Assembly: GCA_964036045.1 (NCBI GenBank) | Contig: OZ038378.1 | Span: 166,703,963 to 166,767,962, forward strand | DNA: 64,000 bases | Direction: 5' to 3' | From: Eutreptiella sp. 'Long Island Sound 2002' | Lineage: Eukaryota > Euglenozoa > Euglenophyceae > Eutreptiales > Eutreptiaceae | Part shown: positions 4,666 to 53,721 of the stretch, piece after piece | Position numbering within the stretch: position 1 is the first letter of the stretch | How the letters are laid out: every line of letters starts with the position of its first letter | Made by a program: the position numbers and the translations under genes | The notes under the pieces: model-generated | Databases searched by the model: none | What the model saw: only the letters and a program-made list of their open reading frames with translations | What the model was told of the DNA's origin: nothing

Positions 4666-6190
4666 GATCCCTGCACGTAGAGCTCTCTAGTTGGCGACGT
4701 GGGAACCACCCCCCCCTCCAGCAACTCGCGCCACCACCGATACCGGTGGATCGGGTGGAGGTCTCGTTCGTTTTACCCCCCACCCAAGAAAAACAAAACA
4801 CATGGGAACCACCCACCCCTGCAGCAGTGCGCACCGTCACCTGTACTCAAACAGGTCGATGGGAGGCCTCGCCCGGTATTCGAAGGGATCGGTGGGAGAC
4901 CACCGATCCCGGGGTTCGAACCAGCTCCTTCACGGCGTGCGCCTGGTGCGCTACCTCCGGGGTGGCTGCCTTCTGAGATACACCGGCACCCGGGTCACAG
5001 AACAAACGCGCCCGCAACCCCCTCCCCCTGTACTAAGAGTAAGCCCGCGGTAGGGCTGCCCGGGACATTGGAGCACCACTCCAGCCACGGTCACCCCAAC
5101 CCCCCCACGCATCCCGCAGGGCGAAGCTCCGTGCGCATCAGGCACGACATGAGAATCCGGCGGGCCGGCGCCTGGACACCAAGACGACACCTCTCTTCCC
5201 CCCCGCGAGAACGGAGCGGGGCCCCCACAACCGCACGCCCGCAACGCAGACCCCGACAGCCCACCTAGTGGACGGGCAGAGGAGGGAAGAGGGACGCCCC
5301 ACGCCCCACGCAATGGACGAAGGCACCCCCCCGGGGACGCCCAGCCGCCGCCCCCGCAACCCCAAGCCAAGTAGGGGGGAACCGGGACCGGACCGCCCCC
5401 CCCCCAAGCACGCCAGACGGAGCACGGGACCGGGGCAGGACACGCGGAGGGGCACGGACCACATGGAACGGCCCTACCAGCGCCCAGTGCCGGGACCACG
5501 CGAGATGCGCGCGCCACACCACCCAGCGGGGAGCGGACACCGCGAGAGCGCGAGCGCACACACACGAAAAAGACACGCGGGGACCACCAGAAGGGCAACC
5601 GGACCGAGCGCGCGGAACGCACAGACCACATGGAATGGCGTACCAGCGAGCGAGGATAAGGGACACCCGGACGGGACGGCCCGCCACACGCAACGCGGGA
5701 TACGCGGGGCGGGAAGGGGGAAGAAGGGGACACACAACACCAGGTACCGGCCCGAACCCCCCCGAACCGGCCGCGAGCGCCGCGCACACACAGACGGGAC
5801 ACTGCACCCGCCAAGGCAGTAGTGGCGCACAGCGCCACGCCCCAACCCCTAGGCTAGGCAGCCACCGCGCCAGCCCAAGGGGGTCCCACTGGCGACAAGC
5901 CAGTAGCACGGGCCCGGCGGCGCCGGTGCCCCGGGCGACCACGCATTAGGGGGGCGACGCAGTGGGTAAGCGCCCGCGGCCACGGCTGCGAATTGATGCA
6001 CTGACCGGGGAGTGGCGAAACGGGGACGCCGGGGAAGGACGGGGCTCCGAGCTCTGTGAACCCGGGGGACTCCGCCACCAGGCAGGAGGTGCGTCTTGGA
6101 GGGCCCCCCACTAGGACCCGGTGGGGAGGATATCACCTGGCCCGACCAGGTGGCCCCCCGGGGCCGAAAGGCGTCTAGTACCCGCAAAAT

Positions 6191-6211
6191 CAAACCTCAA
6201 ACCTCAAACCT
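6191..6211 (+). repeat. (CAAACCT)3 at edge of GC-rich block
   Basis: Three tandem copies of CAAACCT lie exactly where the GC-rich block gives way to normal DNA. Short 3'-terminal tandem repeats are typical of some non-LTR retrotransposons, so this may mark an element end; that is inference. Confidence 0.6.
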
Positions 6212-7884
6212 CGTTGAGAACATTGAGGGGCAGCTACTAACCCGTGCTGACACTCTGTCCCAGCGTAAAAAGAAAAACTAATTTCCTTGTGTCAGTCTAC
6301 TGACTGTGTTCTAACCCTACAGGTGCAGTGAGCACTCTTGTGCAGATATGCCTGTGTATATGTGTAAGAGCAGTTGTCACAGTTGCCCCGCATTGCATCG
6401 CATGACAGGAACGTCAGCACCCCCGTGACAACCACTCCCTGGCCGAAGGCCATTGGTTTTTCACAAAACATTGTTTACGGAGCACTGCAGTGACCCTGTC
6501 TGTGCCCTGCAGTCCCATGCCTATGGTTTCCAGCGTGGACCAGGTGGCCGCTTATCAGGTTTGCAGCCACCCAGCGAGTGTATGCCTTGTTGACCATGTG
6601 TTGCATGGGGACTGCCCTGATGTAATGACCTACGGGAGCCAACGAAGAACGGTGGCTTACTACACCAGGGGGGAATGACAAGCAAGGTGTTATGAGGCAA
6701 GGTGTGTCTTCCCTCCTTGGGGACAAGCGAGCCCACAGTTAGGACCCCTAACTGGTCCAGACCCATGGGGTTCTACCCTTCCTTACAGGGGTTACCATAC
6801 CCCTAAGAGTGCTACGTATGTCTGTGTGTGTCTCACTTCTCTCCCCGGCGTGGCTCCCGGAGACCGGGCTTCGCTGACGTCGGACCGAAGGTCCTAATTA
6901 GGTACTATTACCACACCTATGTCGCCCAATTTCTGTGCTGGCGCCTATCCTTGGCGGACGTCGGCAAAAGCCCTACCTACTAGAGGGGAGGAGTGGCCAA
7001 GTGTGCTAAGGGCATACAAAACGCCCATTTTTGCTAAAGGCCAAAAGCTAACGCACTCCCCTGCCCACGTGGAAAAGCACGCGGGACAGGAGACACCACT
7101 ACACTACACACACTAACGCCAGCACCGGCCTTCGAAGGCAGGGTGAGCACTCATCACTTGCACTCAACTCCTGCCAGGCCTGCTCTCCCTAACTTCCACA
7201 CACGCTACTTGGAGTTGCTGTCAAAGATGTCACGGGTCCTACTGACCCTCCTGTGAGAAAGCAAGAGAGCACAACGCTACTAAGCAACTGTGGCCTAACA
7301 GGGACGCCACTACGCGTTTCGCTGTCAGGGCTTGGAGGGAAGGAGTGCTCATAATGCGTGCACAGCGTGTATGTCGATGAGGTCAGACTGCACTCGCCAC
7401 TCCTGGCTGAGTTGCAGTTATTTGTTTGTGTGATCTGCGCACCATATTTTAGCGCTGCTCAAAGAGACTGCACCAATCGCCCTTACCTTCCCAGCTGTAA
7501 AGCAATGGCAGATGGCCTGGGTTTGCGGCTGAGGAACCAAGACTACCTCCCCGTATTATACGCTTCTCAGGTAGCCCTATAATACACTGTCCTCAAACCC
7601 AAGTGCAAGCAAGCAAGCTTAAGGAGCTCCACCCGTTCTCTTATAGAACGTGGGGTGGAGCCCCTGGGTAGCCTAAACAAGAGTTTTACCGTGCGCAATA
7701 TGCGTGGCCTACCCTTTGATGCGCCATATGCATGCACAGGTATGCACAATTATTCCCGTTCCTTTTTCTGTTACCTAATCTTACCCAACTTAACCAATCA
7801 CAGCGTGACTTAACCAGGAGGTGAGCTCCTCCTGGGCTTACCTACCTTACTCACCACGCATCATGTGAATGCCGAGGAAGACAC

Positions 7885-8052: not shown

Positions 8053-8802
8053 TACCCTATTTTAGCGCTACGGCAACACGAAACACGAGCAGGCACTTTC
8101 TTTTCTTACCTGTGAAGAGAGGATAAGGGTGGATTGGGACACAGGGAAAGCGACACAGCGTCCGAATGCCTAAATTAGGCACATGCACAGCGCATATTCT
8201 AACCCTATGTGCGCGCTGCGCGCTCCATTCGCTTCGCATACCTTTCATTTCTGTTTTGACCTGTGCAGAGCAAAGGAGAGGAGCGCCCGAACCCCCAACA
8301 AACACAGCGGTGACAACCCTAACGTTTTATCGAAGCAACCAACACGAACGCAATGCATGCGTGTGAAATGACACTGGCATACCTGAGAGGTGGGTTGTCC
8401 ACCTGCTCTGTGGTGTAGGTTCGTTTGCAATACTTTTCCCTAAAGTTTATAAAAATTTTGATGCAACTATGCAAAAATTTCTTTTAGAACTTTAAAAATC
8501 ATGCCTCATACCTTCTTTTTCTAGAGCCGTTTACGCTTGCGCAACCCTTTTTCTTGAGTCCGCTTCTGTTGCGCTTGACTGCGACTTTAGATTTTGTGTA
8601 AAAATGACAATTACTCGCGTTGTTTCGTCCATTTTTAGCGATTTGACTTCTTAAATTGCTACACCTTTCGCTAAACCACAGGATTCACTCCCTGTTGGTT
8701 CCATTTTCTATTTTTCTCAGCTCCTGGAGATTTGTGTCCTCCATTGGGAGTATTGCTCCGCCCTGGCCCTTGGTCAGGACGTTTACGGAATTGCTGTTTA
8801 TA

Positions 8803-8893: not shown

Positions 8894-9546
8894 TACCCCC
8901 AAATTTTTGCCCAAAAGTTTTCGCCGCACGCTGGCGAGTTTTGAGGAATGCCCCATCTAAGGGACATCATTCACGGTACATTACACAGTTTTTCAAGGGT
9001 ACGTACATTGTGATAGGCTTCTATGAACTGATGGGAATGTTTTTGGTAGGTTTAATGCATTTTCTGAGGTAATTTTGGGGATATTTGAGCCTTTTTCCTT
9101 GGTCCTACTAGCTTGATCAACTAGTACTCCAAGGGGGATTAAGAAAAAGACACTGCCATGTCTTTCTTGGAGGGCTTGATCCAGGCCAAGCCCCCCTTAA
9201 AACCCTTTTGTTGATGCCAGGGCTTACTAAGTATTTTTATCACTCTTTGGAGGCTTAAAGTACACTTTTTCAAAGTAACTAGGGTTATAACCCTAGCCCC
9301 CCATGAAGTTCACCCCTACCACTCAACTGAGCGGAGGTATCTTCCTTCATGGAGGTTATACCAGAATAAAATAGGCACTTCATGCCTAAGGCCTTGGAGG
9401 TTAAGCCTAGTGGTCTCCCACCCCAAGACCCCTATACTCAATTGTTTCTACCACTTATTGTGGTTCTACTTTTTAACTGTTTCTGAATTCAGTTGCTTGG
9501 CCAAGTCATAATCTGTGTCTGGCCTAACTCCTTTGCCCCATATTCC

Positions 9547-12332: not shown

Positions 12333-14480
12333 TCATACATCCCCCACTCTCTTCCACGCTTCTTGGGCCCCCTCATCACCCAGCAACAACAAAGCAGCTG
12401 CCAAGATAGCGTGCACGTTGCTGGCGGCAAGGCGCTGTGTTGCGCTTTCGGAATCCAGAGCGGACTCCAAAACCTTCAGCAGGGCAGGGAGGTCTTTGAG
12501 TGAGAGAGCATTCAGGGCGGCACGAGGGTTGTGAGCGAGAAGATTGGACAGAGCCCAAAGTGCATCTGTGAGAGCCTCTCCAGCCGCACCATAAGTTGCA
12601 AACGCCATGAGCTGCCTGGCGGCACCCGCCTCAAGAAGCATCATCTTGCAATCACTGCGATTTCTGAGCAATTCCAAAATGGCAGATGTGGCCGCAGCCT
12701 TGTCGCAGCGGCTGCCAGACTCCAGCAATGCCACAAGGGCGTCCATGGCCCTGATGAGGGCCCCTGTGGCCTGTTGAAGATGCTCCGCCAGCCCTGCCAG
12801 GGCGGTCAACGCGAACTGCTTCTGCTCCGCATCTCCACTCTGTACCATCGCCGACAGCGCATCGACCGCACCCTCCGCCACAAGGACCGAGCAGTGGGGC
12901 TCCGAGGCGCAAAGCGCGCCCAAGAGGCGTGCGGCTTCCGCCCTTGTGCCCTCGGGACCGGATGTCGCGCGCGCAACCAGCCGCCGGACGGCACCCGCGG
13001 CCACTATCATTGTCCTGTAGCCCTCACTCTGTTGGGCAAACACGTGGAGTGCGGACATCACTTGCGGGTCCGAGTCCAGGGCGTCAACGAGAGACCCCAC
13101 GATTCCCACGAGGAGCCCAAAAAGCGGCGGCGCATCCCCAGCCTCACCCAGCACCGCCAGAGCCTTCGCGGCCGCCTCCCTATCCTCCTTCGACTGCCCG
13201 TCACGCAGCGCCGTGGCCAACGGAGACACGGCACCCAACGCCCCCGCCATCTCCGCTGCGCTCGCGTCTCCTTCCATCAGCCGTGCCAGGGCCGCGGCTG
13301 GAAGGGCTGCCCCCTTCGTGTCACAGTCGACAAGGGTGACGAGGGGAGGGATGGCCCCGGCTTCAACGATCTCCCGTTTGGTGGGCTCGTGCTCCGCCAG
13401 CCGCAGCAGCGCGTGCACCGCGGCCCTGTGCAGCAGCTTCGCGGGGCCGTCCGCGGCGCCGCACTCGAAACGCAGGGCCTCCACCAGCGCGTCCACGCCC
13501 CCCGCCGCCCCGATGGCCGGCTCGTACCCCCGCGCGAGGCACGCCAGAGCGTGGGCCGCGGCGGACCGGAGGAAGGTCGCGTCGTCCTGCGTCCCGTCGC
13601 GCAGGCACGCCACCAGCGGCGCCAGGGCGCCCGCTGCAACCACCGCCGCCCGGCACTGATTGGGGTTGTACTCGTTGGCGAGGGCGCCCAGCGCCCCCGC
13701 CGCCAGGGCCCGCTCGCGGTCCGCCCCGCACGACAGCAGCGCGACCAGGGGCCCCACGGCGCCCTCAAACTCCAGGTCGTACTCGTAGCAGAACCAGACC
13801 ATCTCGTGCACCGCTCGCGCGGCCTCCGCCGCGGCCTCCGCGATCCCCGACTCGAGGAGAGGGACCAGCGCCGCCATGTTCTCCGCCAGCGCGGCCCGGG
13901 CCCCCACCACGTCGGAGCTGAGGATCCGCAGCGTCCGCGCCGCCTCCGCCGCGGCCGCGCCGGGGCCGGAGTGCAGCGCGACGACGCACGCGCACACGGC
14001 CGTCGCGAGCGGCCGCCCGACGGCCGCGCTGCGGGTCAGGGCCCGCACGGCGGCGGCGGCCCGGTACCCGACGTAGTCGTCGTCCTCCGCGCAGCCGCGC
14101 ACGGCCCCGAGCAGCGCCTCCAGCGCCCCTTCCGTGACCAGCCTCTCCCTCGCGCTGTCGCTCTCGGCGAGGCCGGCCAGCGCCGAGGCCGCCTCCCCCT
14201 GCGCCAGCGCCGTCCCGGTGCGCACGAGGGCCACCAAAGGGCCCGCGGCCCCGGCGGCGACGACGGCGGTGGCGTTGCCGGGCTCGGCGGTGTACTCGTG
14301 CAGGGCCGCGGCGGCCGCCTCCTTCTGCTCGTCGGTGCCGTGCACGAGGTCCCTCACCAGCCCATCCAAGTCCCTTTGCCACGGGTCTGCGGGGCTCTCT
14401 GTGGAGGAGGGAGGGATGGGCGGTGTCGCTTCCTCATGCCACTGGGACCTGTGCCGGGCCCCTCCCCCTGACGACAGCAT
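12333..14480 (-). CDS. Armadillo-repeat protein, 715 aa, intronless
   Basis: From the ATG at 14480 a single open frame runs to a TGA at 12333. The frame is open upstream to about 14543, but only through a TTG, so the ATG is preferred. After a short N-terminus the protein is almost wholly tandem repeats of about 42 residues of armadillo type, with motifs such as GAAGPLVALVRTG and EGALEALLGAV. I count roughly 14-16. In the family these stack into a superhelix that binds partner proteins, as in importin-alpha, Vac8 and plant ARM proteins. No U-box, IBB or other extra domain is visible, so the specific partner and role are unknown. The first half of the gene is much richer in GC than the last third. 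A long plus-strand frame (12531-14471) is its antisense shadow. Confidence 0.85.
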   Translation of the reverse strand: MLSSGGGARHRSQWHEEATPPIPPSSTESPADPWQRDLDGLVRDLVHGTDEQKEAAAAALHEYTAEPGNATAVVAAGAAGPLVALVRTGTALAQGEAASALAGLAESDSARERLVTEGALEALLGAVRGCAEDDDYVGYRAAAAVRALTRSAAVGRPLATAVCACVVALHSGPGAAAAEAARTLRILSSDVVGARAALAENMAALVPLLESGIAEAAAEAARAVHEMVWFCYEYDLEFEGAVGPLVALLSCGADRERALAAGALGALANEYNPNQCRAAVVAAGALAPLVACLRDGTQDDATFLRSAAAHALACLARGYEPAIGAAGGVDALVEALRFECGAADGPAKLLHRAAVHALLRLAEHEPTKREIVEAGAIPPLVTLVDCDTKGAALPAAALARLMEGDASAAEMAGALGAVSPLATALRDGQSKEDREAAAKALAVLGEAGDAPPLFGLLVGIVGSLVDALDSDPQVMSALHVFAQQSEGYRTMIVAAGAVRRLVARATSGPEGTRAEAARLLGALCASEPHCSVLVAEGAVDALSAMVQSGDAEQKQFALTALAGLAEHLQQATGALIRAMDALVALLESGSRCDKAAATSAILELLRNRSDCKMMLLEAGAARQLMAFATYGAAGEALTDALWALSNLLAHNPRAALNALSLKDLPALLKVLESALDSESATQRLAASNVHAILAAALLLLGDEGAQEAWKRVGDV

Positions 14481-15169
14481 ACGCAATGCGCGGCGGTCCT
14501 TAATGCAACAAAACGATTCCCGGCCACTCCCGTCCACCGCCAACCGCCGTTAACGAAGCAACGACTGCTGCTCGTCAACTGTCCTCCGATCCATTCACTT
14601 GCTGCTGGAAACCGCTCGGGGCGATCGGTTGGACGTCAATCGCTGTCCGTTGGCCAGTGCCCTCACACTACACACAGAATAGTGGCGGACCTGCCGTACA
14701 GCACATCCTGTGGTGCGCTCATTATCTTGTGCCGTTATTCCGGCCCACAGCTCCCTAGCATTGTTCGTGTGTCTCACATCAACGGACGGCGGCTTTGAGA
14801 TGCGTATTTCTATGGACTTTTCATCCCCCGCCGCATATACACCAGTACCCCCTGATGCTTGCACAGTGCCCACAATGACTCAGATGCACCATCGGTAGTA
14901 ACCGACAGGGGGAGGTTGCAGGTGGGGATGTTGAATCGGCTACAAAACGGGGGGGAGGGGGGGCACAGTTCTCCATTCCAGACGATGGGGGAAATGTTGT
15001 AATGGGGTAATAGGCTGGAAGCTTTCATTGATAAGCAGCAACAGCAGAAACAAACCAGCAGCGCAAAGTACAGTCACAGGCATGGGCGATCTCCGAGTTC
15101 TCAGACCCAAAGTCCCGGTAAAATCATATCCACAGGTCTGTCACAAGGGTATTTCCAACCACCGTCATA

Positions 15170-22540: not shown

Positions 22541-24262
22541 TCATAGATTGAGAGTCAGAGTATGCAAGGCTGCATCTTTCAGCCCAGCAAGTGCGTGTGC
22601 ACCACTGTCGCCGACTTCGTTGAACTTCAGATCTATCAGCAGGTTGCACAGTGTGGTTGCATCCTTCAAGCCAGCAAGCGCTTGTGCACCACTGTTTCCA
22701 ATGTTGTTGCCATACAGATTCAGAGTCAGAGTGCGCAATTTACTATCCTTCATTCCTGCAAGGGCATGGGCACCACTATCACCAATCTTGTTGAATTGTA
22801 GGCTCAGATGAAGAGTATGCAGTGCGACTGCATTCTTGAACCCAGCGAGTGCTTGGGCACCACTGTCTCCCATGTTATTCCGGTACAATGTCAGAGTGAG
22901 TGTGTGCAGCGCAGCTGCATGCTTCAACTCCGCAAGTGCCTGAACACCCCTATGCCCTACTTCGATGTGCTGCAGGTCCAGAGTCAGAGTATGTAGTGCA
23001 GCTGCGTGTTTCAGCCCCGCGAGTGCTTCAGCACCACAGTCCCCCAGGTTGTTGCCGCACAGATTCAGAGTCAAACCCTGCAGTCCAGCGGCATCCTTCA
23101 GCCCAGCAAGCGCTTGGGCACCAATGGCTCCCACTTTGTTGTTGCACAGATTCAGAGTCAGATTACGCAGTGCAGCTGCATCCTTCAATGCAGCCAGCGC
23201 TTGCGCACCAGTATCTCCAATATTGTTGCCACACAGATTCACAGTCAGAGTGTGCAGCTTGGCTGCATCCTTCAACTCCGCAAGGGCCTGAGCCCCGCTG
23301 TCTCCAATGTTGTTAGATTTCAGGATCAGACTTAGAGTATGAAGTGCAGTTGCATTCTTGAACCCAGCAAGTGCCTGGGCGCCACTGTCCCCCACATTAT
23401 TCAGGTCTAGTATCAGAGTCAGACTGCGGAGCGCGGCGTCCTTCATTGCAGCCAGTGCTTTCGCACCACTGTCCCCTATTGCGTTGCACTGCACATCCAA
23501 AATGAGAGTGTGTAGTGCAGCTGCGTGCCTAAACATTGCAAGTGCTTTGGCACCCCTGTCCCCCACGTTGTTGCCACACAGATTCAACGTCAGAGTATGC
23601 AGTTTAGCTGCATCCTTCAACCCAGCAAGTGCATGGGCACCACTGGCGCCTATTTTGTTGCCACACAATATCAGAGTTAAAGTGTGCAGTGCAGCCGCAT
23701 TCTTCAATCCAGCAAGTGCCTGCGCACCAATGTCTCCCACATTGTTAGGGGCCGATGCATTGAAAGACAGAGTGTGTAGCGCAGCCGCGTTATTGAACGT
23801 GGACACATTCAAAGACAGGGTGTGCAATGCAGCTGCATCCTTCAACGCTGCAAGTGCCTGCACACCACTATCTCCCACGTTGTTGTTGGACAGATCCAGG
23901 GATAACGTGTGCAGTGCAGCGACATCTTTTAATCCAGCAAGCGCTTGGGCACCACAGTCTCCGATACCGTTACTGTGCAGATTCAGAGTCAAAGTGTGCA
24001 GCGCAGCTGCGTCCTTTAACCTGGCAAGCGCCTGGGCACCAGAGGCTCCCACTGTCATCAGTTTCAAAGACATGGTGTGCAATGCCTGCATGCACAAATT
24101 CCGCATCACTTTGAAGACATCGGGTCCCCTGACAACACCGTACCGTACATGTCGCTGCTGCAAGATATTCCACATCCGAAGACACACATGACTGCACACC
24201 GCGTTCTGTGCAAAGTCAGAGATACAAATCAAGACATCCTGAGGCAACTCAAATAGCTTCAT
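22541..24262 (-). CDS. F-box-like / leucine-rich repeat protein, 573 aa
   Basis: The first ATG in frame is at 24262; the frame extends upstream only through a TTG. Residues about 3-40 (LPQDVLICISDFAQ...CLRMWNIL) resemble an F-box, the module that binds Skp1 in SCF ubiquitin ligases. The rest is about 18 tandem leucine-rich repeats of about 29 residues, of ribonuclease-inhibitor type, consensus ALHTLTLNLxxNxxGDSGAQALAxLKDAA. The fourth unit is cut to about 16 residues, as if by unequal exchange, and the last is partial. In F-box/LRR proteins the LRR arc binds the substrate; here the substrate is unknown. The gene is intronless, and its repeats are similar enough at DNA level to mispair. Without the F-box it would be a generic RI-type LRR protein. 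Confidence 0.8.
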   Translation of the reverse strand: MKLFELPQDVLICISDFAQNAVCSHVCLRMWNILQQRHVRYGVVRGPDVFKVMRNLCMQALHTMSLKLMTVGASGAQALARLKDAAALHTLTLNLHSNGIGDCGAQALAGLKDVAALHTLSLDLSNNNVGDSGVQALAALKDAAALHTLSLNVSTFNNAAALHTLSFNASAPNNVGDIGAQALAGLKNAAALHTLTLILCGNKIGASGAHALAGLKDAAKLHTLTLNLCGNNVGDRGAKALAMFRHAAALHTLILDVQCNAIGDSGAKALAAMKDAALRSLTLILDLNNVGDSGAQALAGFKNATALHTLSLILKSNNIGDSGAQALAELKDAAKLHTLTVNLCGNNIGDTGAQALAALKDAAALRNLTLNLCNNKVGAIGAQALAGLKDAAGLQGLTLNLCGNNLGDCGAEALAGLKHAAALHTLTLDLQHIEVGHRGVQALAELKHAAALHTLTLTLYRNNMGDSGAQALAGFKNAVALHTLHLSLQFNKIGDSGAHALAGMKDSKLRTLTLNLYGNNIGNSGAQALAGLKDATTLCNLLIDLKFNEVGDSGAHALAGLKDAALHTLTLNL

Positions 24263-25330
24263 ATCTGCAGGAGCACAGGCAGTCTGTAGAGACAACGCCC
24301 AGGCAAACGATTGGCAAAGATGTGCTCATGTGGGCTGCCAAGTTGCACGGCACCCATACATCCTCCCTGAAAGCAGAATTGCATGGAGCAATGGAAATTC
24401 CGCGATGCAATTGCCCTCCCCTTGCCCCCCGGACATTCCTCATACCCTGCCCCCCCCCCCCCTTGCAATCCCCTCCTTTAGTGCGCGACGGTCTCCCGGC
24501 CGGGGGGGGGGGGCGGTCGCTAAGTGACTGTCTCCCCTGGGGGGGGGGGGATTGCAAGGGTATTCCAAGGCAAACTAAACAGCAAATGTTGGGCATCATT
24601 TTGCATGTGTCTGCTCTTGCTCATGTCCAACTCTGATGCTCGCGTGTTGCAACAATTTTGTGAGGTTTGACTGTTCAATGATACCATCCCTCCTCCACAA
24701 GTAGTACAAGAATAATGGTACAATAACCCTGCCGGGCAGTGGGTGGCCATGATATCAGCTTTTCAAATAACCCGCATGATCTCAACCGCAACCCCATGCC
24801 TCTCTTTTCGAGAGCCTGTTCAGTTTTCTTCTCAGCTGTCCTTTCACTTGGCCCTACACAATCCTGAAAGACCTTGTCCACGTCAAAATGCTTCCCCGCC
24901 GAAAAGCAGCACTTTGTGTAGTAGTCTAGGCCCTGGGGCTCCGTGTCCAGTTCCCCTGCTGGCATCCTTGTGCTGGCCTTCCCTGGACACTATGCACCAC
25001 GCAACCAAAGGCAATTCCACACACTCTGATTGTTCAGCCGCTGTAGCGCCTTCATCACATCTGCCGCTTCCTATGGGGTCCGAAACCGCTGAATTCGCAT
25101 TTCAAAGCGCATGATTTGCTTGACAGCCCCTCCATTGCATGGGACCTTTTGAGATGATACACCTGGTCCACCGTTGAACATGAATTCTGACAGATCAAAC
25201 CCAGGTTCATGAGCTCAGTCATGCAACTTCTTATCGGTCATGATGGCGGCGATCCTCAATCCCTGCCCTCCTCTTCTGCCCCCCGCCCACCCAATGCAGC
25301 GGTCCAACCGGTTGTCTGCCTCAACCTGCC
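24263..25330. other. No firm gene; possible minus-strand exons
   Basis: Minus-strand segments at about 25095-24970 (SAVSDPIGSGRCDEGATAAE...) and 24965-24675 (LDTEPQGLDYYTKCCFSAGK...) look protein-like. Neither has convincing splice partners or a known domain. Inverted C and G runs (24450-24465 and 24501-24550) could form a hairpin. Confidence 0.25.
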
Positions 25331-43500: not shown

Positions 43501-45197
43501 TGTGTCTGGGGGAGTGTGCATGTGTGTGTGGTGGGGGGGGGGGTGGGGGCTGCCCTACTGCTGTCGATTGCAGCTTTCTGCCCTCGTGGCGTCCACTCGC
43601 TGGTGCTGACAGTCTTCACATTCGGGGGAGGGGGGGGGTTGCCGGCGAGTAGCTCTCCCGATGGCAAAAGCAATGGGCTCATCCCTCAGACCACTGATAC
43701 CCCCATGCCCTTTGCCCTCGTCAAGGCCCTCCGAATCCAAATGGCTCTGAACGGGAGGTGGCAATGCGCCGTCCACCAGGAGCACGCCATTGCTTGAGGG
43801 CCCCTGGGGGCGGTGGGGGGGTGCATTTGGGGCCCTTGCTAACCCCAGACGACCGGCCGACAAACGCACATCCGTCAAGACTTCCCCGGGACAGAAATGA
43901 ATCCAATTAAAAGGGCCCGAAATTGGAGGCCGGATTTACGTACACTTGTTGTTGGCCCCTGACCCCCCCCCCCCCGGGGGCTGGGGGGGTTGTGCCACTA
44001 AGCAATGGCCTGACCGGGAGCCCTGCACCAGCGTGAAGGCAGGCGGTAAAGGCAGAAGGTGGGCAGGGCGCGGGGTGGGGGGGGGGGGGGCACGAGGCAG
44101 GTGGTGTGGGGAGGTATAAAGGCAGGGTGCCGGCGTAGGGGATGGGGTTTAGGCCAGAGAGGCAGGAGCTGGGCATGACGAGGGGGTTCAGGCTTTGCAC
44201 CAGGAGGCCCTGGGAGAAACAAGCGCACTGCGTGCACACCGCGTGCACCGTGTGCACCGCGTGCACACCGCATGCTAGTTCTTCATCCCTATTCTATGCA
44301 CTTTTGGCAGGTTACCAGGGGTCCAGGGTTGGCATACAACAATGGAGGCCTCCACTCCACCTCCTCACCAATGCCATGGTGGTTGTAGCCGCCCACACCC
44401 CCTGTCAGGGGGGATGGGGGGTTCAGCATAGAAAGACCTCTTCGGCACAGCCCGCACCGAAGAGGTTGCCCCATGGCGTGCCCAAGCCTGTGGAGCAGTC
44501 GTTTCGGCACGTTTCGCGGTTCGGACCTCACGGAGTGCTCATTCCCGTATGGTACCCAGGCCCATCAGGCAATCGTCTCGTGGATCAAGACATTCATGTC
44601 ACTCAGTTGGAGTCCTCCCCTCATTCTCTTCATCGTCCTCCTCATCAGAAGTCAGGGAAGTGCTGAGAATGACTCCGAGTCACAGGATTCTGATTCAGAG
44701 CCGAAGGAGGTGGGTGATCGCAAATTTTCGATACCGCTGCCCCCCCCCCCCCCCTTCCACAAGCTCTACTGATGCTTGTGGCAGAGCGGTGTTTACAGGT
44801 CGCAGTGCCTAAATGAAAAAGTAATGCATTCATAAGATAGCACTAGATACCGTGCACATTGCGTGCACCGCCTGCTCGTTTCTCTCCCTGCGGCAGGACT
44901 TGGCTGAAGCGATTGCCCTATGCCATGGTACGCCGGCTTCCAGCGGTTCGCCACCAACAGACGTATGCCGATCCCCAGCCGCCGCTGCCCACCGCCAGCC
45001 ACACGTCCTCCATCACAACGGATGTGCACGTGAACAGCACCTGATCTATGAACCCAAAGTCAGAGGCCTTAAGGGACGCGCCGCAGGTCCAGGCAATCTC
45101 CACCGCCTTGTGCAACGTGTAGCGCACGCGGGCGTCTGAGTACAGCTTCATCTTTCGCAGCCCATCGGTCGTCAGCGTGTGCACGTCCTCGTGCCCT
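31575..45197 (-). CDS. SAM-dependent methyltransferase, at least six exons
   Basis: Minus-strand exons: 45197-45041, 42199-42077, 40525-40302, 35730-35341, 35006-34898 and 31679-31575 (or from 31670). All joins keep the frame, giving about 370 aa to a TAG at 31575. The second exon carries SAM motif I (AIDIGTGVGGPGRYMQ), preceded across a junction by FGFIDQ/LHYLGYE. The third reads YGVRVTGIEYLHELVK, then FQVVEGDFSHMDL; the fourth CGQCLADNGYFMIEDYF and FVDMTDRWCTFIWERY; the last LRGCRIMGRKR. This order is that of class I small-molecule methyltransferases of the sterol/phosphobase/betaine type with a DQ-x-HY-x-G N-terminal motif. The substrate cannot be told. Donors after GT are very relaxed (GTGCTG, GTATCT, GTATAC, GTTCCT, GTCCGG). 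The GTTCCT donor and last acceptor are the least certain. Introns reach about 4.6 kb. Confidence 0.8.
33149..33787 (+). CDS. Acidic Glu/Val/Lys-rich ORF inside an intron, antisense
   Basis: The first ATG in frame (MGVPKKTSFTPQEDA...) opens about 212 codons to a stop at 33787; the frame is also open upstream to about 32753. The centre is strongly acidic and repetitive (VEEAEVEESVAPKEERNDVE) and predicted helical or disordered. The C-terminal 60 residues are more ordered (LWDSKWLILWSKFNKHEP). It lies in the last intron of the methyltransferase gene on the opposite strand. No domain is recognised. It could be an independent gene, an exon, or an old mobile-element ORF. Confidence 0.35.
   Translation: MGVPKKTSFTPQEDAESAFLAVQSKEAIMDEPLASVKDGSNVGEKDVEAIVEEAEVEESVAPKEERNDVEQEEMEKDTVEEVVEQKFEGNEPLKECAALAVEKPLIPKEEEKLVDEAMVDADVDRDAVREEGAPNAIVETQATPALWDSKWLILWSKFNKHEPTFHTGQGYNLKFQMATLYLKSQIVAGDSSAPQVGHPLAPSPRGGGATKT
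36101..36165 (+). repeat. TTCGGAAATA x6, 10-bp tandem repeat
   Basis: Six perfect head-to-tail copies of TTCGGAAATA, ending in a degenerate TTCAG. The 10-bp period is close to one helical turn, so any protein binding it would be phased on one face of DNA. Confidence 0.9.
36631..36722 (+). repeat. Second block of TTCGGAAATA-type repeats
   Basis: Variants of the same unit (TATTCGGAAA, TATTCGGATA, TATTCGGAAT, then further copies at 36687-36720), interrupted by about 25 unrelated bases. Lies about 470 bp from the perfect block. Confidence 0.8.
37712..38185. mobile_element. Transposon terminal fragment with GTTAAC subterminal repeats
   Basis: The motif GTTAACNAA (variants followed by AGTGGGG) occurs about seven times, at about 37733, 37774, 37793, 38074, 38109, 38128 and 38145. 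The edges are inverted relative to each other: CCCCCACTTTTTGTTA near 37717 against GTTAACAAAAAGTGGG near 38155. Clustered short subterminal motifs are typical of transposase-binding ends. A terminal exon with a PIP-box lies between them. I infer one end of an otherwise lost or distant DNA transposon. Confidence 0.45.
37851..37994 (+). CDS. Terminal exon with C-terminal PIP-box motif
   Basis: After a strong pyrimidine-rich acceptor (TTTGTCTTGATGTTGAG or GAGCAG), a frame reads QNVRMYVEKRHKAEDD and ends in KQLSLMSFFKPNIPN then a stop. QLSLMSFF fits the PCNA-interacting box Q-x-x-hydrophobic-x-x-F-F. Such C-terminal boxes occur in replication and repair proteins and in some transposases. Lying among subterminal repeats, a transposase tail is the likelier reading. 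Upstream exons were not identified. Confidence 0.4.
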   Translation, partial: QNVRMYVEKRHKAEDDPQPDPMEPLVKQQHTSKQLSLMSFFKPNIPN

Positions 45198-46862: not shown

Positions 46863-46930
46863 TCGTCACGACTGACAGCTACCACCAGCAGCAATAGCAA
46901 TTTTTCTTTCGGGCAGCTACAAGGCTCTTG

Positions 46931-46964
46931 CTTAGGCGGCCAAAACAGGTACACTTTTGTACCG
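46931..46964 (+). repeat. Left terminal inverted repeat
   Basis: Begins CTTAGGCGGCCAAAACAGG and contains an internal hairpin, GGTAC-ACTTTT-GTACC. The first 11 bases are identical to the right end read inward. Confidence 0.85.
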
Positions 46965-47537
46965 CTGTTTTTTTAAAAAAATACCGAGAAATGATGTGGG
47001 TTATTTGAGTGATTTACCCTCTTTTTTTGGCCCTGATTTTTCATGAATGTTTTTTCAGTAAAAAAAGGTACTTTTTTCATGACGTTGCAACAATTTGGGC
47101 TCTGCTGTATTACTGCGTAGTAAGGTGTCTCCATAAAGAAGGATATTGCACTATACGTCCTGCTAAGTGTAGGTTAATACGCCTTTTTCTGCAACGCATT
47201 GCGAGGCCTCGCAATACCAGGATTTGATTTTCGGTGCTTCTGCTAAAATTGAACGCATGCAGAATTCGCATATTGGTAATTACGCCAAATAACATGGTCC
47301 GTCGAATGCGAGGCCTCGCATTCCGGTTCGAAATATTCAAAAAAGGGTCACTTGCGCAAATCGAAATGCGAGGCCTCGCAATAATGTAGCATGAAACAAT
47401 AAAATGGACAGATCCACCAACTACACAGCATGTACATTCCCTTTGATGCGGCGCTACTGTATGGCCGGCCATACAGGTCCCGCCGGCATCTCTAGTTTTC
47501 ATGCTGTGGTCACCGCTGACTTCACTGCCCAACAGCA

Positions 47538-49756
47538 ATGGTCGCGCGCCGCAACTGGGTACCGCAGTTAGGATTAACAAGAGAAATGTGGGACCAGTTG
47601 ACCGTTACAAGTAACCGAGAATGTGCACGCGCGACGCAGTTGCGCGGAAAGATCGATATGCGCGTGTCGCGTGTGCAGCGCTGTGCTGGCAAGAAATTTT
47701 ATTTACCTGTAGCATTATAAGTGCCTTTTTTCTTTAATTGTTCAATTCAAATACACTTTTTCAATTTTTGAGATGATTGTTCATGCCACGGAACATTGCG
47801 CATTGAGCGCAGAGGGAGTTGGAACGGACTGTCAGGCGATTGCGAGCTTTCTGTGCAACGGAACATGGATATACCACTCCTGAATCCCTATGGGCTGCTG
47901 TTGAAAACAACAAGAGCGGAGCTGTTTTCTTTTATGATTTTGCGTGCTTGTTGCGACTGAACCGGAAGACACGGCACTCACTTCGGAGACTGAAAGGCAG
48001 ACCAGAGAGTCGAGCGGCAAATCACTTCAAGGAGAAGTTCTTTAACCTATACAAAATCTTGCGCTTGCGGTGCACACCCCAACACCAGGACGAGGACGCC
48101 CCCGGTTTTGCCTCTATCGGGCGGCAGAACAGGCGCCGGCTGCGCAGGACAGGGCTGCTTCAGCTGCGAGAGGAAACTATGAAGCAACGGTCCGCGGGAA
48201 AGATGCTTGAAACATGGCGTTGGATGGAGAACCGGCAGGTTTGCGTCTGGATCGACAATTGCTACATTAAGCAGTATGGAACGCATCCAACGATCCAGGA
48301 TCAGTCGCAAAATTGCACAGCGCTTTGCGTCGTTGAGATTCCGTGCAGGTTGCCGTACTTCAGAGGACACCCAACCATAGATGTGCTCATCGGCAGCATC
48401 GGCAATGTGGCTGCAGCGCTGGTCAGAATGAAACGGAGCTTCCGTGGGATAGTAACAGATCTGGGCCTGCTTGCGGACAGACCAGCGCCAATACCGAGCA
48501 TCAGGGCGCCGCTTGACATCGTGCGATATCCAGTACCGAATCCTGGTTGGACACCGCTGTTGCTGACTACGCATCAGGTATCCTCGTACAAGGGCCTCGT
48601 TGAGGTGTTGGACTACATTGCATCCCTGTCGAACCACACGCACCCGATTGTGCCCATCCTCGTTGATGAGAACATACACAAAAGATGCCTCAAGTTATTG
48701 TACTGCGACAGAACGCAGCGCTGGAACTGGCACGAAAAACTCAAGAGAACTCCCATCTTGTACGGCTGTTGGCATCCCTATAAATACCTTGTGACAAACG
48801 TGTGGCGGCGCTTTCATTCTCTATTTGTGTACTTCCGCTTTGGCCGCTTAGGAGTGGGGAAAACAGTAGGGTCGTACCCGAAGATGAGAGTCATGGAGAG
48901 AACTATGGCTGGCATCCTGAAGTGTTCGCCGCATTTCTTGCGGCAGTTGCGGCGGAAGTCGAACAGGTTACAGGCTGTTGCCGATCACGGTGGGACGGCG
49001 ATGGATCGACTGAAGAGTGTGGTATGTAAAGCTATGGTGAACCTTCTGCAAAACTGGTGTCCGCTTGTCCTCTACTGTGGGTTTATCGTGAGGCAATGCA
49101 ATTGGTCCGGACAACACCCAGGATCCGCCATCGACGCCCATCATGTTCTCCGACTGGTGTTCGTGCTTTTGACAGAGCTTGGCAGGGCTACAGCTGACCC
49201 ACTTGTGTATGTGAGGACCATCGGTGTCGCCTTAATGCATTGGCAGGCGTTCAACAGCGCCCTGCCCGGATTGTGCTATGGTGAAGAGTTTGGCGAAGTT
49301 ATGCTCAGTCGACTGGGGTCCATGAAAGACGGACACACCTGGGTCGTCACACCGAGCGACGTAGAAGATTTGTTCGTCCAAATATGTCCTGCCAGAATTA
49401 ACAGACGCCTCCTGGTCAGCGGTTTGTCGTCCGACATTGAAACAGAGATCCGACAGCGCTTGCACTCGTATGTTACTGACGACCGCCTGAGAATTCGGTA
49501 CTATCCCTGGCAATCGGGTAGCTCGACTATGGAGAGGCACTGGGAGGCTGATCCGGATTTTCCGTCCGACCCTTACGGCGAGCCGGACGTGGACACATAC
49601 AGGACTTTGTTGACCGATGTTTTGCGTACATTTCTGCGGCAACCCCAAAACTTCTCACCTGCTGTGCTACGGTTGATGGACAACATGGTTCCTCTGCGGT
49701 CTGATGCGCAGAGAACGAACATTTTGGACACAATCTGGGCCTTTACCGATGCATAG
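47538..49756 (+). CDS. Transposase-like protein, 704 aa, two exons
   Basis: Exon 1 (47538-47708, ATG) encodes 57 residues (MVARRNWVPQLG...). A 104-base intron (CCT|GTAGCA ... GAGCGCAG) joins it in phase to exon 2 (47813-49756). Without the intron, exon 2 would open after a TGA at 47804 with no ATG nearby. Features resembling an RNase-H-fold DDE transposase are VCVWIDNCYIKQYG (Asp205), VPILVDENIHKRCLKLLY (Asp342) and YGCWHPYKYLVTNVWRRF (His379). The last two recall the D...H-x-x-K pattern of KDZ/Plavaka-like and DUF6589-type transposases. The third acidic residue is not obvious. The N-terminus is basic. Being the larger gene between intact TIRs, it is the best transposase candidate. The superfamily is uncertain. 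Confidence 0.6.
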
Positions 49757-50030
49757 AATCGGTTTTAGGTTGATTCCCAGCTGTGTTATGTTATTGCGCG
49801 CACAACGGTGCTTTTGCTTCCTGCTTCGTGACTAGAATGCGAGCCCTCGCAATCGCCTCCTGCAAAAGTACGTTTTTGAGTAGATGTTCTTGCCTGAATG
49901 CGAGGCCTCGCAATACAAAGTAGGTAATTATAAACAAATACCTGTGTTTTCGATTTCAAGCCCTCGCAATCAAACCATAAATACATGCCGAACGACACAG
50001 TTTTTTCCCTTTTTACAGGCCTATTTCATC

Positions 50031-52613
50031 ATGGCAGAGAGCGTGACGCCAACAAAAGCGGGCAGAGCATCACCAGACACCTTGCAAGTACCGTCCACGC
50101 AGGACACGGTGCCAGAGGAGTTCCTGAGGTTCTACAAGAAGCCTTTGCAGGTGGAGGTCGACGTCACTACCCTTGGGATCGACAAGCAGAAGAAGTACGG
50201 TCAGATCCGGAAGTATCGACAGAAGCAAGTGGACGAGGTTAAGAGAAGTCTCATGGCAAACCCTCCTGAGGAGCCCGTGACCGTGACTGCATGGCAATCA
50301 CCAGGTACGTAACCGGGCCGCAGCGGCGATGTTTCATGTGCATGCTCTCAAGACCCTCTTTCCGTCCTCGGTTGATGATTGGATCGTCATTGTAAAGCAG
50401 CACTGCGTCTGTGCGCTCAAAGAGCTCCGAAACGAACGTCTTGAGAAAGGCCTCGACCCACCGCAGTGGATGCAAATTGTTAAGGTCAACCTGCTGAAGA
50501 CGGAGACGAGTTGGGCTACTCGGGTAGCAATCGCAAGTCGCAAGCAGGCCATCGATCTCGACATCTCTGCCGTGCCACCGTCGGAAGCAGCTGACAACTT
50601 TCTTATGCATTTGCGGGATTCGCCGGCTGGGCCTGACGAGTCCGCCAGGGATCACATTCACCGAACCATTCCAAAGGCCGCGAGCGGAAGTGCATGGATC
50701 CCTCCACAGGTTTCGGATGATGAACTCCAAGTATGTTGCTGTTTGGAATGCGAGGCCTCGCAATCTGCAATCTAGCAACGTACCCTCCGCCTGTGCAGTC
50801 TTATGCCGTTAAGGCCTTTGGACCCTTCTTCACGTGGGTGTACCACGCGGAGGACGCAGCTGTGCAGTCCGTGATCAATTTCAAGAACATGGACACACCA
50901 CTGACAATGAACCAGTTGAAGTTTCTGCAGAGTTTGTACGAGCCAGCCCTCCTACAACAGGTCGCCGCCGATATGTGGAGACCAAAGGTGAACATCAAGG
51001 AAATCCAGGACCGGGCCTCTACTTACCAGAAGCAGCAGTGGATCAAGTGGCATTGGGGAGCCGCTCCGGACAGCGTCATCCATCCCTCTCGAAGTATGTT
51101 CCCCTGACAGGCAAGTAGGCAAACACGCAAACATGAAGCCAAATCAGTCAATTAAAACTTTCCACACCTGTGCAGAGGCCAGTCCGGCAGAGAGGGTACC
51201 GCTGCATGACTGGGATGTCAATTGGTTTCGGATCCCTTTGGGGGCCTGGCAGTGGAAATTTGAGGCTCCGTCGCCAAAATGGGAAACGCTGAGCAAGGAG
51301 CGGTTCTGGACGGCAATGGGACACACTTTTCCAAAGCGTGGGGCATCAATGGACCTTGGCCGCCCCCGACTGGCCACGCCCTTGACGGAGGTCAAGTCTA
51401 CGGAGTCTGGAAAAGTGGATGTGCTGAACATTGAGGCTAGTGGAAAGATGGTCAAAATGTTGTGCGCCCCCTACAAAGATCCACAAGATCCCCTTAAGTT
51501 TTTGGAGGCGCTGGAAACGGACATGATTCTTCTGAATGCGAATCTGGCGGATGGTGCTGATTCTGTGAGTCCGGTTGTGATGGCGAAGTTGATCGAAAAC
51601 CCCGAAACGGTGCTGGTCATCTACGGCGAGGTGTCGCCCGCGTTTGACGCCCTGCAAACAGTTCTGGAGTCACCTGGGATTGCGGAGAACGATTACTGGT
51701 ATGAGAAAGTGCAAGTGTGTCACTGGCTACCGGGTGCGGGCAAGACGGGAAAAGGCGGAATTCAAGTGAATGCACTGGTTCTGGTGGCCGGTGTAAAGAT
51801 CAAGAAAAAGGTATGTACAACGCTTTCGGATTGCGAGGCCTCGCATTCCCTTTAACATCTCGCTACTCCTCTCCGCAGATCCCACCATACATCGGCTTGG
51901 ATCGCCGCGAACGTGATGAACCAGGGTTCATGCCCCTTGTCCTCTATACGTGGCTGGCGACGCTGATGCGGAACAGAGACCGCTCGGACAACGTCATGAT
52001 CTTCGATCGCGATGTGCACATGGCAGCGAAAGTGGCAGCTTTGGATGATCTTCCACAAGTTTGTTCTCTGCAGTTGACGAAATCAAAGCGATCGGACTGG
52101 GCACGGAGCTACCATCACGAGGTGACGCAGCGTGTGCAGGCAGGAGTAGACCAGACGAGGTTGGCACAGTGCGAGCTCTGGATCCAGTTCGGCATGCCAA
52201 TGTGGGTCGAGGACGAGAACGTGGGGTATGCCCATCTGGAAGTGTCGACTGCAGAGGAAGCAAGTCAGAAGGCCCATGCAGAAGTCGGAGACGAGGACTT
52301 GGAGGATCCGGAGGACGACGACGATGACGCGGTGCTGCTGGAACATGATCGGCGATCTCCTCGGAAGTCAACGCAGGTTCGGGCGTTCCAGGCTGGCGAT
52401 GCACATGAAGATGAGCCGGAGGCGAGCCAACCGCCGAAGCCGAAAAAGCCGAAGACCAAGGCGGCAGCAGAGCCGAAGCACACGACCCTGACGCAGCCCC
52501 AAGGGGTGAAGAGGACGCTGAGCCTTCCGGATCCGGGAACAGCAGTGGGCTCCACGGCGAGGAGCAAGATGTTGGCAGCGGGATTGAAGAAGAAGAAGAA
52601 GCCCTCCACGTAA
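50031..52613 (+). CDS. Transposon accessory protein, 781 aa, five exons; ParB-like?
   Basis: Exons 50031-50304, 50324-50730, 50799-51093, 51176-51810 and 51879-52613 total 2,346 bases, exactly 782 codons, with every junction in phase. Introns are 19, 68, 82 and 68 bases; three start GTATGT and end in CAG, and two carry the element's palindrome. The start is an ATG after a pyrimidine tract. Residues about 55-126 (KKYGQIRKYRQKQVDEVKRS, MANPPEEPVTV, then DDWIVIVKQHCVCALKEL with Gln117-His118) recall the ParB/sulfiredoxin-like fold, where a G-x-H-R-x-x-A motif follows a helix and NPP segment. The match is weak and lacks the usual Gly and Arg. The middle is unassigned. The C-terminus has an acidic run (about EDLEDPEDDDDD) and Lys/Pro-rich tails fitting nuclear and DNA contact. 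Function inferred: DNA-binding helper of transposition. Confidence 0.7.
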
Positions 52614-53538
52614 AGGCGTTGGTAGCGCTGCAGCCCTGTTCTACGAGATATGTCGTCCCGCATTGCGAGGCCTCGCATTCCCAGATTAGGCAACTTGCCA
52701 TTTCTGCTCTTTTTTTTAGAAGCATCATCTGGAGATGATGATTATACTGACCCTAAGGCAGCAGTCAGTATTGCGAGGCCTCGCATTCTTAAAGCCTCAC
52801 GTGTCGACGCACACAATGTATTTATAGTTTGTATTCTCTTTTTGCTTGTTTCTGTGTGATCCAAAGCTGTGTGTAATTGCAAGGGATTACCTTGATTCAT
52901 GTCTCGTATTGCGAGGCCTCGCAATACGAATAGGAAAATAGTATATTTTTACATCATTTCGGCAACCTCGGGCGTAAAACTTGGCTTTTTTAAGGGTGCA
53001 AAAAAAAAGGAAGGAGAGGACAACACCAAAAAGCAAGGTTTTATAGTCGAAAAACCCCCAAAATATGGTGCATTTTACAGAAAAGTGGGTAAAATGGCAA
53101 AAATTGTGAGGCCCTCGGACCCCCCCCCCAACAGCCCCCCCCCAGAGTCTTTGACAGATAGCTGAGTGGTGGGTCGCAGCGGGACCGGGTCTAGCCGCCC
53201 TTCCGGTGTTGTACTACACGGCAAGCAACCAGCCTTTATGGACGCGCCCCCCTTTCTAGGCTAGGCCGATTGCTGTAGGGCTCCCAACTTTCACAGGAGC
53301 AATGCAAGTTCGAAGGCTGGAAGCCCCAAGTGTTGATGGAGAACCACAATTGCCCCATGCCCCGTGCTGATGTCCTCCAGACCGGCGACATAATCCCATA
53401 CTCCAAGAGCTGGGCTTTTTTGGAGGAAAATCATGCATTTTTGTGGGTAATTGGGCCAAAAAATTGAGTAGTCAAATTTTGTGGTTGAAAAAAGTAGGCA
53501 AATCGGGCAAATTACCTGTACCAAATTTGCAGACATCC

Positions 53539-53571
53539 CGGTACAAAGGGTACCTATTTCGGCCGCCTAAG
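53539..53571 (-). repeat. Right terminal inverted repeat
   Basis: Read inward from 53571 it begins CTTAGGCGGCCGAAATAGG. It keeps the internal GGTAC-CCTTT-GTACC hairpin, one base shorter in the loop than the left copy. Confidence 0.85.
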
Positions 53572-53721
53572 TCTTGAGTACGGGCACATCCTGACGAGCC
53601 AGCGGACCCCCAATGCCCTTGTTTCGCCCCTTTTCACATCCACCGCCATTCTTAATTCTGCACTGATTGGCTCTGTGCAATGCAGCTCTCGGGAGGGCAC
53701 CATGTTGCACTTGAACTCTAC

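Follow-up and report, generated by a model that had tools for sequence, protein, structure and literature searches.

Short palindromes that recur eleven times in the non-coding DNA of a euglenozoan transposon are probably recognition sites for a protein that the transposon itself encodes. The stretch of DNA analysed here (the window, 64 kb) contains nine exact copies of TGCGAGGCCTCGCA and two variants (at 49838, with one mismatch, and 49955, with three), all at the places given in a preliminary description. We favour, with moderate confidence, the explanation that they are cis-acting sites for a dimeric DNA-binding protein, most likely the product of gene 2, which would coat the element for anti-silencing and/or to mark it for the transposase. 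The earlier proposal that the sites are selected for binding by an element protein gains support from their conservation in diverged copies, their retention in gene-less derivatives and an altered motif in a sister element; the identity and purpose of the binder we infer from sequence.

The transposon and its genes

The element (Table 1) has the inverted termini and fixed-length duplications of a DNA transposon, with TCTTG on either side in the window and mostly perfect 5-bp duplications in a gene-less family, and its terminal inverted repeat (TIR) is also present in relatives. The insertion in the right subterminal region has no counterpart among the relatives compared. The CpG observed/expected ratio, 0.92 in the element versus 0.65 in the remainder of the window, would suit an insertion that is young or protected. 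Short GCGTGCAC-type repeats lie to the left of the element (44231-44284 and 44851-44875), and the minus strand of the window carries genes of host type that encode armadillo and leucine-rich repeats (12336-14543 and 22544-24295). The paraflagellar-rod family PF05149, specific to Euglenozoa, has 39 matches in the host genome and none in 14 control genomes, which marks the host as a euglenozoan.

Table 1. Features of the transposon in the window (positions are those of the window).
Feature	Position	Strand	Basis or remark
Transposon, whole	46931-53571		TIR starting CTTAGGCGGCC, flanked by 5-bp duplication TCTTG
Target-site duplication, left copy TCTTG	46926-46930	.	read directly
Left TIR, CTTAGGCGGCC...	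46931-46957	+	27 bp, 89% complementary to right end
Right TIR	53545-53571	-	complementary to left end
Target-site duplication, right copy TCTTG	53572-53576	.	read directly
302-bp insertion, right subterminal region	53111-53412	.	element 6180-6484 skipped where relatives match; also by alignment
Gene 1, transposase-like	47783-49756	+	long open frame 47807-49756
Gene 2 exon 1, start of 781-aa model	50031-50304	+	gene model
Gene 2 exon 2, 5' boundary uncertain	50324-50730	+	gene model
Gene 2 intron 2, GT-AG	50731-50798	+	gene model and copy comparison
Gene 2 exon 3	50799-51093	+	gene model
Gene 2 exon 4	51176-51810	+	gene model
Gene 2 intron 4, GT-AG	51811-51878	+	gene model and copy comparison
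Gene 2 exon 5	51879-52613	+	gene model; relative P0019
Palindrome 1, exact, upstream of gene 1	47200-47213	.	aligned in 5 copies
Palindrome 2, exact, upstream of gene 1	47307-47320	.	aligned in 5 copies
Palindrome 3, exact, upstream of gene 1	47367-47380	.	aligned in 6 copies
Palindrome 4, family-wide variant TGCGAGCCCTCGCA, between genes 1 and 2	49838-49851	.	copy comparison
Palindrome 5, exact, between genes 1 and 2	49899-49912	.	copy comparison
Palindrome 6, GCCC variant with private changes, between genes 1 and 2	49955-49968	.	
Palindrome 7, exact, inside gene 2 intron 2	50749-50762	.	copy comparison
Palindrome 8, exact, inside gene 2 intron 4	51832-51845	.	copy comparison
Palindrome 9, exact, downstream of gene 2	52664-52677	.	
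Palindrome 10, exact, downstream of gene 2	52772-52785	.	
Palindrome 11, 26-bp perfect palindrome, core 52910-52923	52904-52929	.	read directly

Gene 1, which is transposase-like, has 18 relatives in the databases, and its window copy contains an in-frame stop at codon 8; gene 2 has a relative, P0019, with 74% identity across 57% of its length. No Pfam or NCBIfam family was matched by either gene, and the AlphaFold2 model of gene 1 has a mean pLDDT of 45. Pfam, NCBIfam and PDB sequence searches with gene 2 returned no recognised DNA-binding domain, and its weak matches are to unrelated families, such as PF01670 (E 0.22) and PDB 2zk7 (E 0.033). Judged by dN/dS between the window copy and the copy L056 (0.13 for gene 1 and 0.20 for gene 2), both genes are under purifying selection relative to L056. 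The 19-nt first intron (50305-50323) behind the 781-aa model of gene 2 is doubtful because its putative acceptor AG reads AC in four of eight copies, and true splicing at this place may be non-canonical. Non-canonical splicing is known for Euglena.

Among the database proteins, P0002 has a tandemly rearranged transposase frame and P0014 has the frame joined to a reverse transcriptase, arrangements that point to nested insertions. The transposase relative P0018, 27% identical, comes from a short contig of another source and may place the transposase lineage beyond the present host as well. No relative of gene 1 was confirmed in viral contigs; the 14-mer itself was found there in 31 stretches, with one site per stretch, so single copies do occur elsewhere.

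Placement of the palindromes in the window and in the genome

The unit shared by the eleven sites is 18 bp long, AWTGCGAGGCCTCGCAWT, with the outer A present in all 22 half-sites; palindrome 11, earlier described as perfect over 24 bp, is in fact perfect over 26. At up to three mismatches the window contains 13 matches, compared with a mean of 3.57 in 100 shuffled sequences (sd 1.83, largest 9), and outside the element these are one site with two mismatches (4860) and one with three (10970). Exact copies are confined to the transposon, as had been reported, with none elsewhere in the window, and 0.0003 would be expected per window from a first-order Markov estimate. The description of the sites as lying between genes and in two introns, never in exons, also stands: under the gene model all eleven are outside predicted exons, two of them intronic. 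Non-coding DNA makes up 25% of the span, and random placement would put 11 of 11 sites there with P ~2e-7.

A genome-wide count had been suggested as a check on the link to the element. In the 2.28-Gb genome (2205 contigs), exact TGCGAGGCCTCGCA sites number 1669, against two for a backwards-letter control and about ten estimated from a Markov model of the window composition. The motif is thus frequent, yet it is tied to the element in the sample: of 20 motif-chosen stretches, each 10 kb long and together taking in 44 of the 50 sites listed, all from the beginning of one contig, 19 carry sequence that matches the window transposon. The twentieth (L036) is an ambiguous case, with 1960 masked bases and a single match, of 84 bp at 71%, to the gene-less family. 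In seven of the 19 (L041, L042, L043, L045, L049, L050 and L055), a shorter element matches the window element at its ends and palindromes only.

Gene-less and sister families

The gene-less family is 856 bp long with four palindrome sites, and no gene 1 or gene 2 sequence was found in the matches seen. Further copies were sought with a motif-free probe, the 126 bp between two palindromes, which gave 40 scored matches; ranks 3 to 22 were fetched, ranks 1 and 2 being L049 and L050. Within three mismatches, 16 of the 20 copies have four sites, three have three and one has two. Both ends are present in 17 copies, with a 5-bp duplication that is perfect in 13, matches at 4/5 positions in three and at 3/5 in one. 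Eighteen copies have a right end, and in 17 of them the last site starts at a distance of 356-360 bp from it; in L082 no such site was found. A comparison of 17 right ends, mostly from motif-chosen stretches and including L052 via a site with three mismatches, puts the start of the last site 357-362 bp from the end in 16. The window element has its last site 662 bp from the right end, 302 bp of which are the insertion.

The near-matches within the fetched stretches are other palindromes sharing the core GCGAGGCCTCGC. A second family has the TIR CTTAGGCGGCTCAAGTTGCATGG and the palindrome TTGCGCGAGGCCTCGCGCAA or near forms of it, and one of its elements (L043, 6663-8355) is flanked by the 5-bp duplication CCTTG. 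Copies of this family are found nested within family-A elements, close to element position 5800 (L040 4537-9474, L038 from 8668, L039 to 1114). The copy in L040 looks like a large inverted repeat, and L043 contains a 54-bp perfect palindrome (8113-8166) centred on the sister-family motif.

The third family is represented by the sole sister element read at length, assembled by joining L083 and L050; its own TIRs were not found within this joined stretch. The transposase is 34% identical to gene 1 of the window (P0001, 566 aligned), and the pieces of gene 2 show 24, 26 and 27% identity. The sister element carries TGCGCGAGGCCTCGCGCA at nine sites, six exact and three with one mismatch, with flanks that are mostly AG...CT. 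The layout resembles that of the window element: three sites precede the transposase, two separate it from gene 2, three are intronic and one is downstream, and a tenth, degenerate core is present at position 9325 of the joined stretch. Each of three predicted introns of the sister gene 2 (73, 71 and 97 nt) contains one site, and in a protein alignment the two introns that carry sites in the window element have introns 2 and 4 of the sister gene as their counterparts. In L052 and L059, parts of the third family with TGCGCGAGGCCTCGCGCA likewise adjoin gene 2 pieces of 26-27% identity. That the sites change together between families suggests one family-encoded binding protein, most likely the product of gene 2.

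The same comparisons bear on an alternative in which the gene 1 transposase binds the sites when the cut-and-paste complex forms, much as transposases elsewhere use internal or subterminal sites, and chromatin plays no part. It would account for four sites being retained by gene-less copies and for the near-fixed distance of the last site from the right end in both groups, and gene 1 also diverges along with the motif. However, end synapsis needs neither mid-element nor intronic sites, and such sites are present here, in corresponding introns of two families; spacing at the left end also differs between the window element (first site at 270) and the gene-less family (mostly 194-197). We therefore regard a transposase-only role as unlikely, though worth serious consideration.

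It is more improbable still that the palindromes are host transcription-factor or insulator sites acquired by the element for its expression. The three sites that precede gene 1 and the three that precede gene 2 would fit promoter use, but the sites are kept by a family that lacks the genes, the longer form at all nine sister sites is not simply explained by a shared host factor, and none of the 20 stretches is a clear host locus without element sequence, L036 being ambiguous.

Conservation between copies

A search of the genome with the transposase gave 71 matches, from which seven copies, top-ranked as well as low-identity, were hand-picked independently of the motif. The motifs are 98.5% identical between the window element and L056, against 81.9% for other non-coding DNA, and the corresponding values are 97.2 and 76.4% for L057 and 80.6 and 77.2% for L059. 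There is no difference for L058 (94.8 and 93.8%) or L060 (91.7 and 91.0%). L061 (68.2 and 59.5%) and L062 (64.9 and 54.2%) lack at least one end and were aligned only in part. Pooled over the seven copies, for the site-copy pairs retained by a flank filter (60 of 77), mismatches amount to 74/1071 in motifs and 753/4390 in flanks; the positions are not independent. In a test on 18-bp windows, P is 1.8e-5 for L056 and L057 together and 0.62 for L058 and L060. Site 51832 is absent from L057 and L060, where a larger deletion has removed it.

Selection is thus seen only against the more diverged copies, since the motifs of the closest ones, L058 and L060, decay like the rest; this contrast would be expected if lineages that were still moving needed the sites and stranded copies did not. 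The division of the copies into subfamilies is our reading of their identities. On these sequence comparisons, the palindromes look selected. The two variant sites had been called degenerate, and their mismatches are real, but simple decay does not describe them, because GCCC in place of GGCC recurs in other copies: in all seven at site 49838 and in six of seven at site 49955 (L058 with an adjoining deletion; L059 reads GCCT). The remaining changes at site 49955 are absent from all seven.

A profile of the gene 2 N-terminus collected 108 database proteins, of which 68 were anchored before intron 2 and 58, probably from the same species as the window, were left once 10 false anchors had been dropped. 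In 32 of the 58, which read through intron 2, CEAS stands in register at palindrome 7; this fits the palindrome without proving every base.

Within the gene-less family, motifs carry almost as many changes as the remaining sequence (0.052 versus 0.061). Transitions at CpG positions number 14/280 in motifs and 38/630 at other CpGs, and other C/G transitions 10/516 in motifs and 144/4928 outside. As transitions are commoner at CpG than at other C/G positions, in motifs and outside alike, it is plausible that the sites are methylated in stranded copies, and sensing of methylation by the palindromes is possible. Protection of motif CpGs from decay was considered and is not clear from these transition counts, nor from total divergence at CpG positions (0.089 in motifs and 0.124 outside).

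There is very little probability that the palindromes are neutral by-products, either of a tiny mobile palindrome or of an ancestral duplication inherited by all copies. Erosion of the sites at about the background rate, in the near-window copies as in the gene-less ones, would agree with neutrality, but sites mismatch 2.5 times less than flanks over the seven copies and about 12 times less against L056, the flanks of the window sites share little outside the 18 bp, and the nine sister sites are all in the altered form. Equally hard to credit is a transcript hairpin for processing or splicing, which the sites in introns and gene-adjoining stretches would suit, as changes often affect one arm only (for example ATTGGGAGGCCTCGCAAT, the first site of the gene-less family) and sites persist where gene 1 and gene 2 sequence is lacking.

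A proposed self-recognition system and its precedents

Recognition by a family-encoded protein is favoured because the altered sister motif, gene-less retention and conservation in diverged copies all point to it. The product of gene 2 would be the most likely protein to bind the palindromes sequence-specifically, as a dimer if their dyad symmetry is a guide. Once bound, it would coat the element from near its ends through the introns, keep the element and its site-retaining gene-less derivatives usable, and open them against host silencing and/or mark them for the transposase. Within this coating function, we place anti-silencing slightly above a direct role in transposition. Two considerations make gene 2 the preferred candidate binder: the element has a transposase-like gene besides it, and VANC and TnpA provide precedents. 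Gene 1, likewise diverged, could also be the binder.

In Arabidopsis, VANC21 motifs are enriched in the non-coding sequence of VANDAL21, both ahead of VANA21 and within introns, and VANC6 targets carry motifs other than those of VANC21 (PMC5735166, PMC10398659). The window element resembles VANDAL elements as these sources portray them: a short element-specific motif is dense in non-coding DNA, including introns and the regions upstream of genes, motifs vary among related families, and more than one gene is element-encoded. Unlike the VANC21 motif YAGTATTAY, which is non-palindromic and arranged in tandem repeats, the window motif is a perfect dyad and dispersed; moreover, genes 1 and 2 match no Pfam family and the host is a euglenozoan. 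Pfam and NCBIfam models revealed no MULE transposase or VANC homology in genes 1 and 2, and more distant homology is possible.

In En/Spm (CACTA) elements, the repeats recognised by TNPA are subterminal and act in cis to determine excision, and motifs and binding proteins diverge between subfamilies (PMC2613891). The window element similarly combines a transposase-like gene with a second gene, whose product is the putative binder, and repeated motifs. In contrast to TnpA motifs, which are subterminal in that account, the window sites are also mid-element and intronic, the TIR begins CTTAGGCGGCC and not CACTA, and the duplication is 5 bp and not 3. By analogy, the window element would work like VANC/VANDAL or TnpA/Spm, and it is a member of neither. 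The dispersal of sites into introns favours a VANC-like model and the right-end spacing together with the gene-less family a TnpA-like one; both may hold.

The preliminary description had also drawn an analogy to parS clusters or centromere-like iterons. ParB-parS systems comprise clusters of short perfect palindromes over several kb. The window element shares such clustering over several kb, but a transposon in a chromosome is not known to require partitioning. By eye, an N-terminal V...QH stretch of gene 2 (NGQHG in the sister element) recalls ParB/Srx-type domains; this suggestive likeness has no sequence or profile support from Pfam, NCBIfam or PDB, and family models and PDB profiles matched neither a ParB/Srx nor an HTH domain in gene 2. 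Without a sequence match between gene 2 and any ParB-type model, the parS analogy is unsupported.

In the open full-text literature, no paper with the full palindrome was found, which does not mean absence from print, and searches of the open literature for the palindrome, its core, the TIR start, Euglena genomes and DNA transposons returned no title on such an element. Tentatively, and at less than even confidence, we suggest that a euglenozoan transposon lineage has its own address system, in which each family's palindrome is set about ten times in non-coding DNA and rewritten together with gene 2. This would be an independent VANC-like invention outside plants, possibly with a ParB/Srx-like spreading protein. 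Transposons that recognise their own sequence specifically are best known from a few systems in plants. If the proposal is true, an example from Euglenozoa that combines a perfect palindrome, sites kept by a gene-less derivative and matched motif changes in sister families would show that address systems arise repeatedly, and two proteins and two DNA sites would suffice for a direct test of the coevolution of transposon protein and motif.
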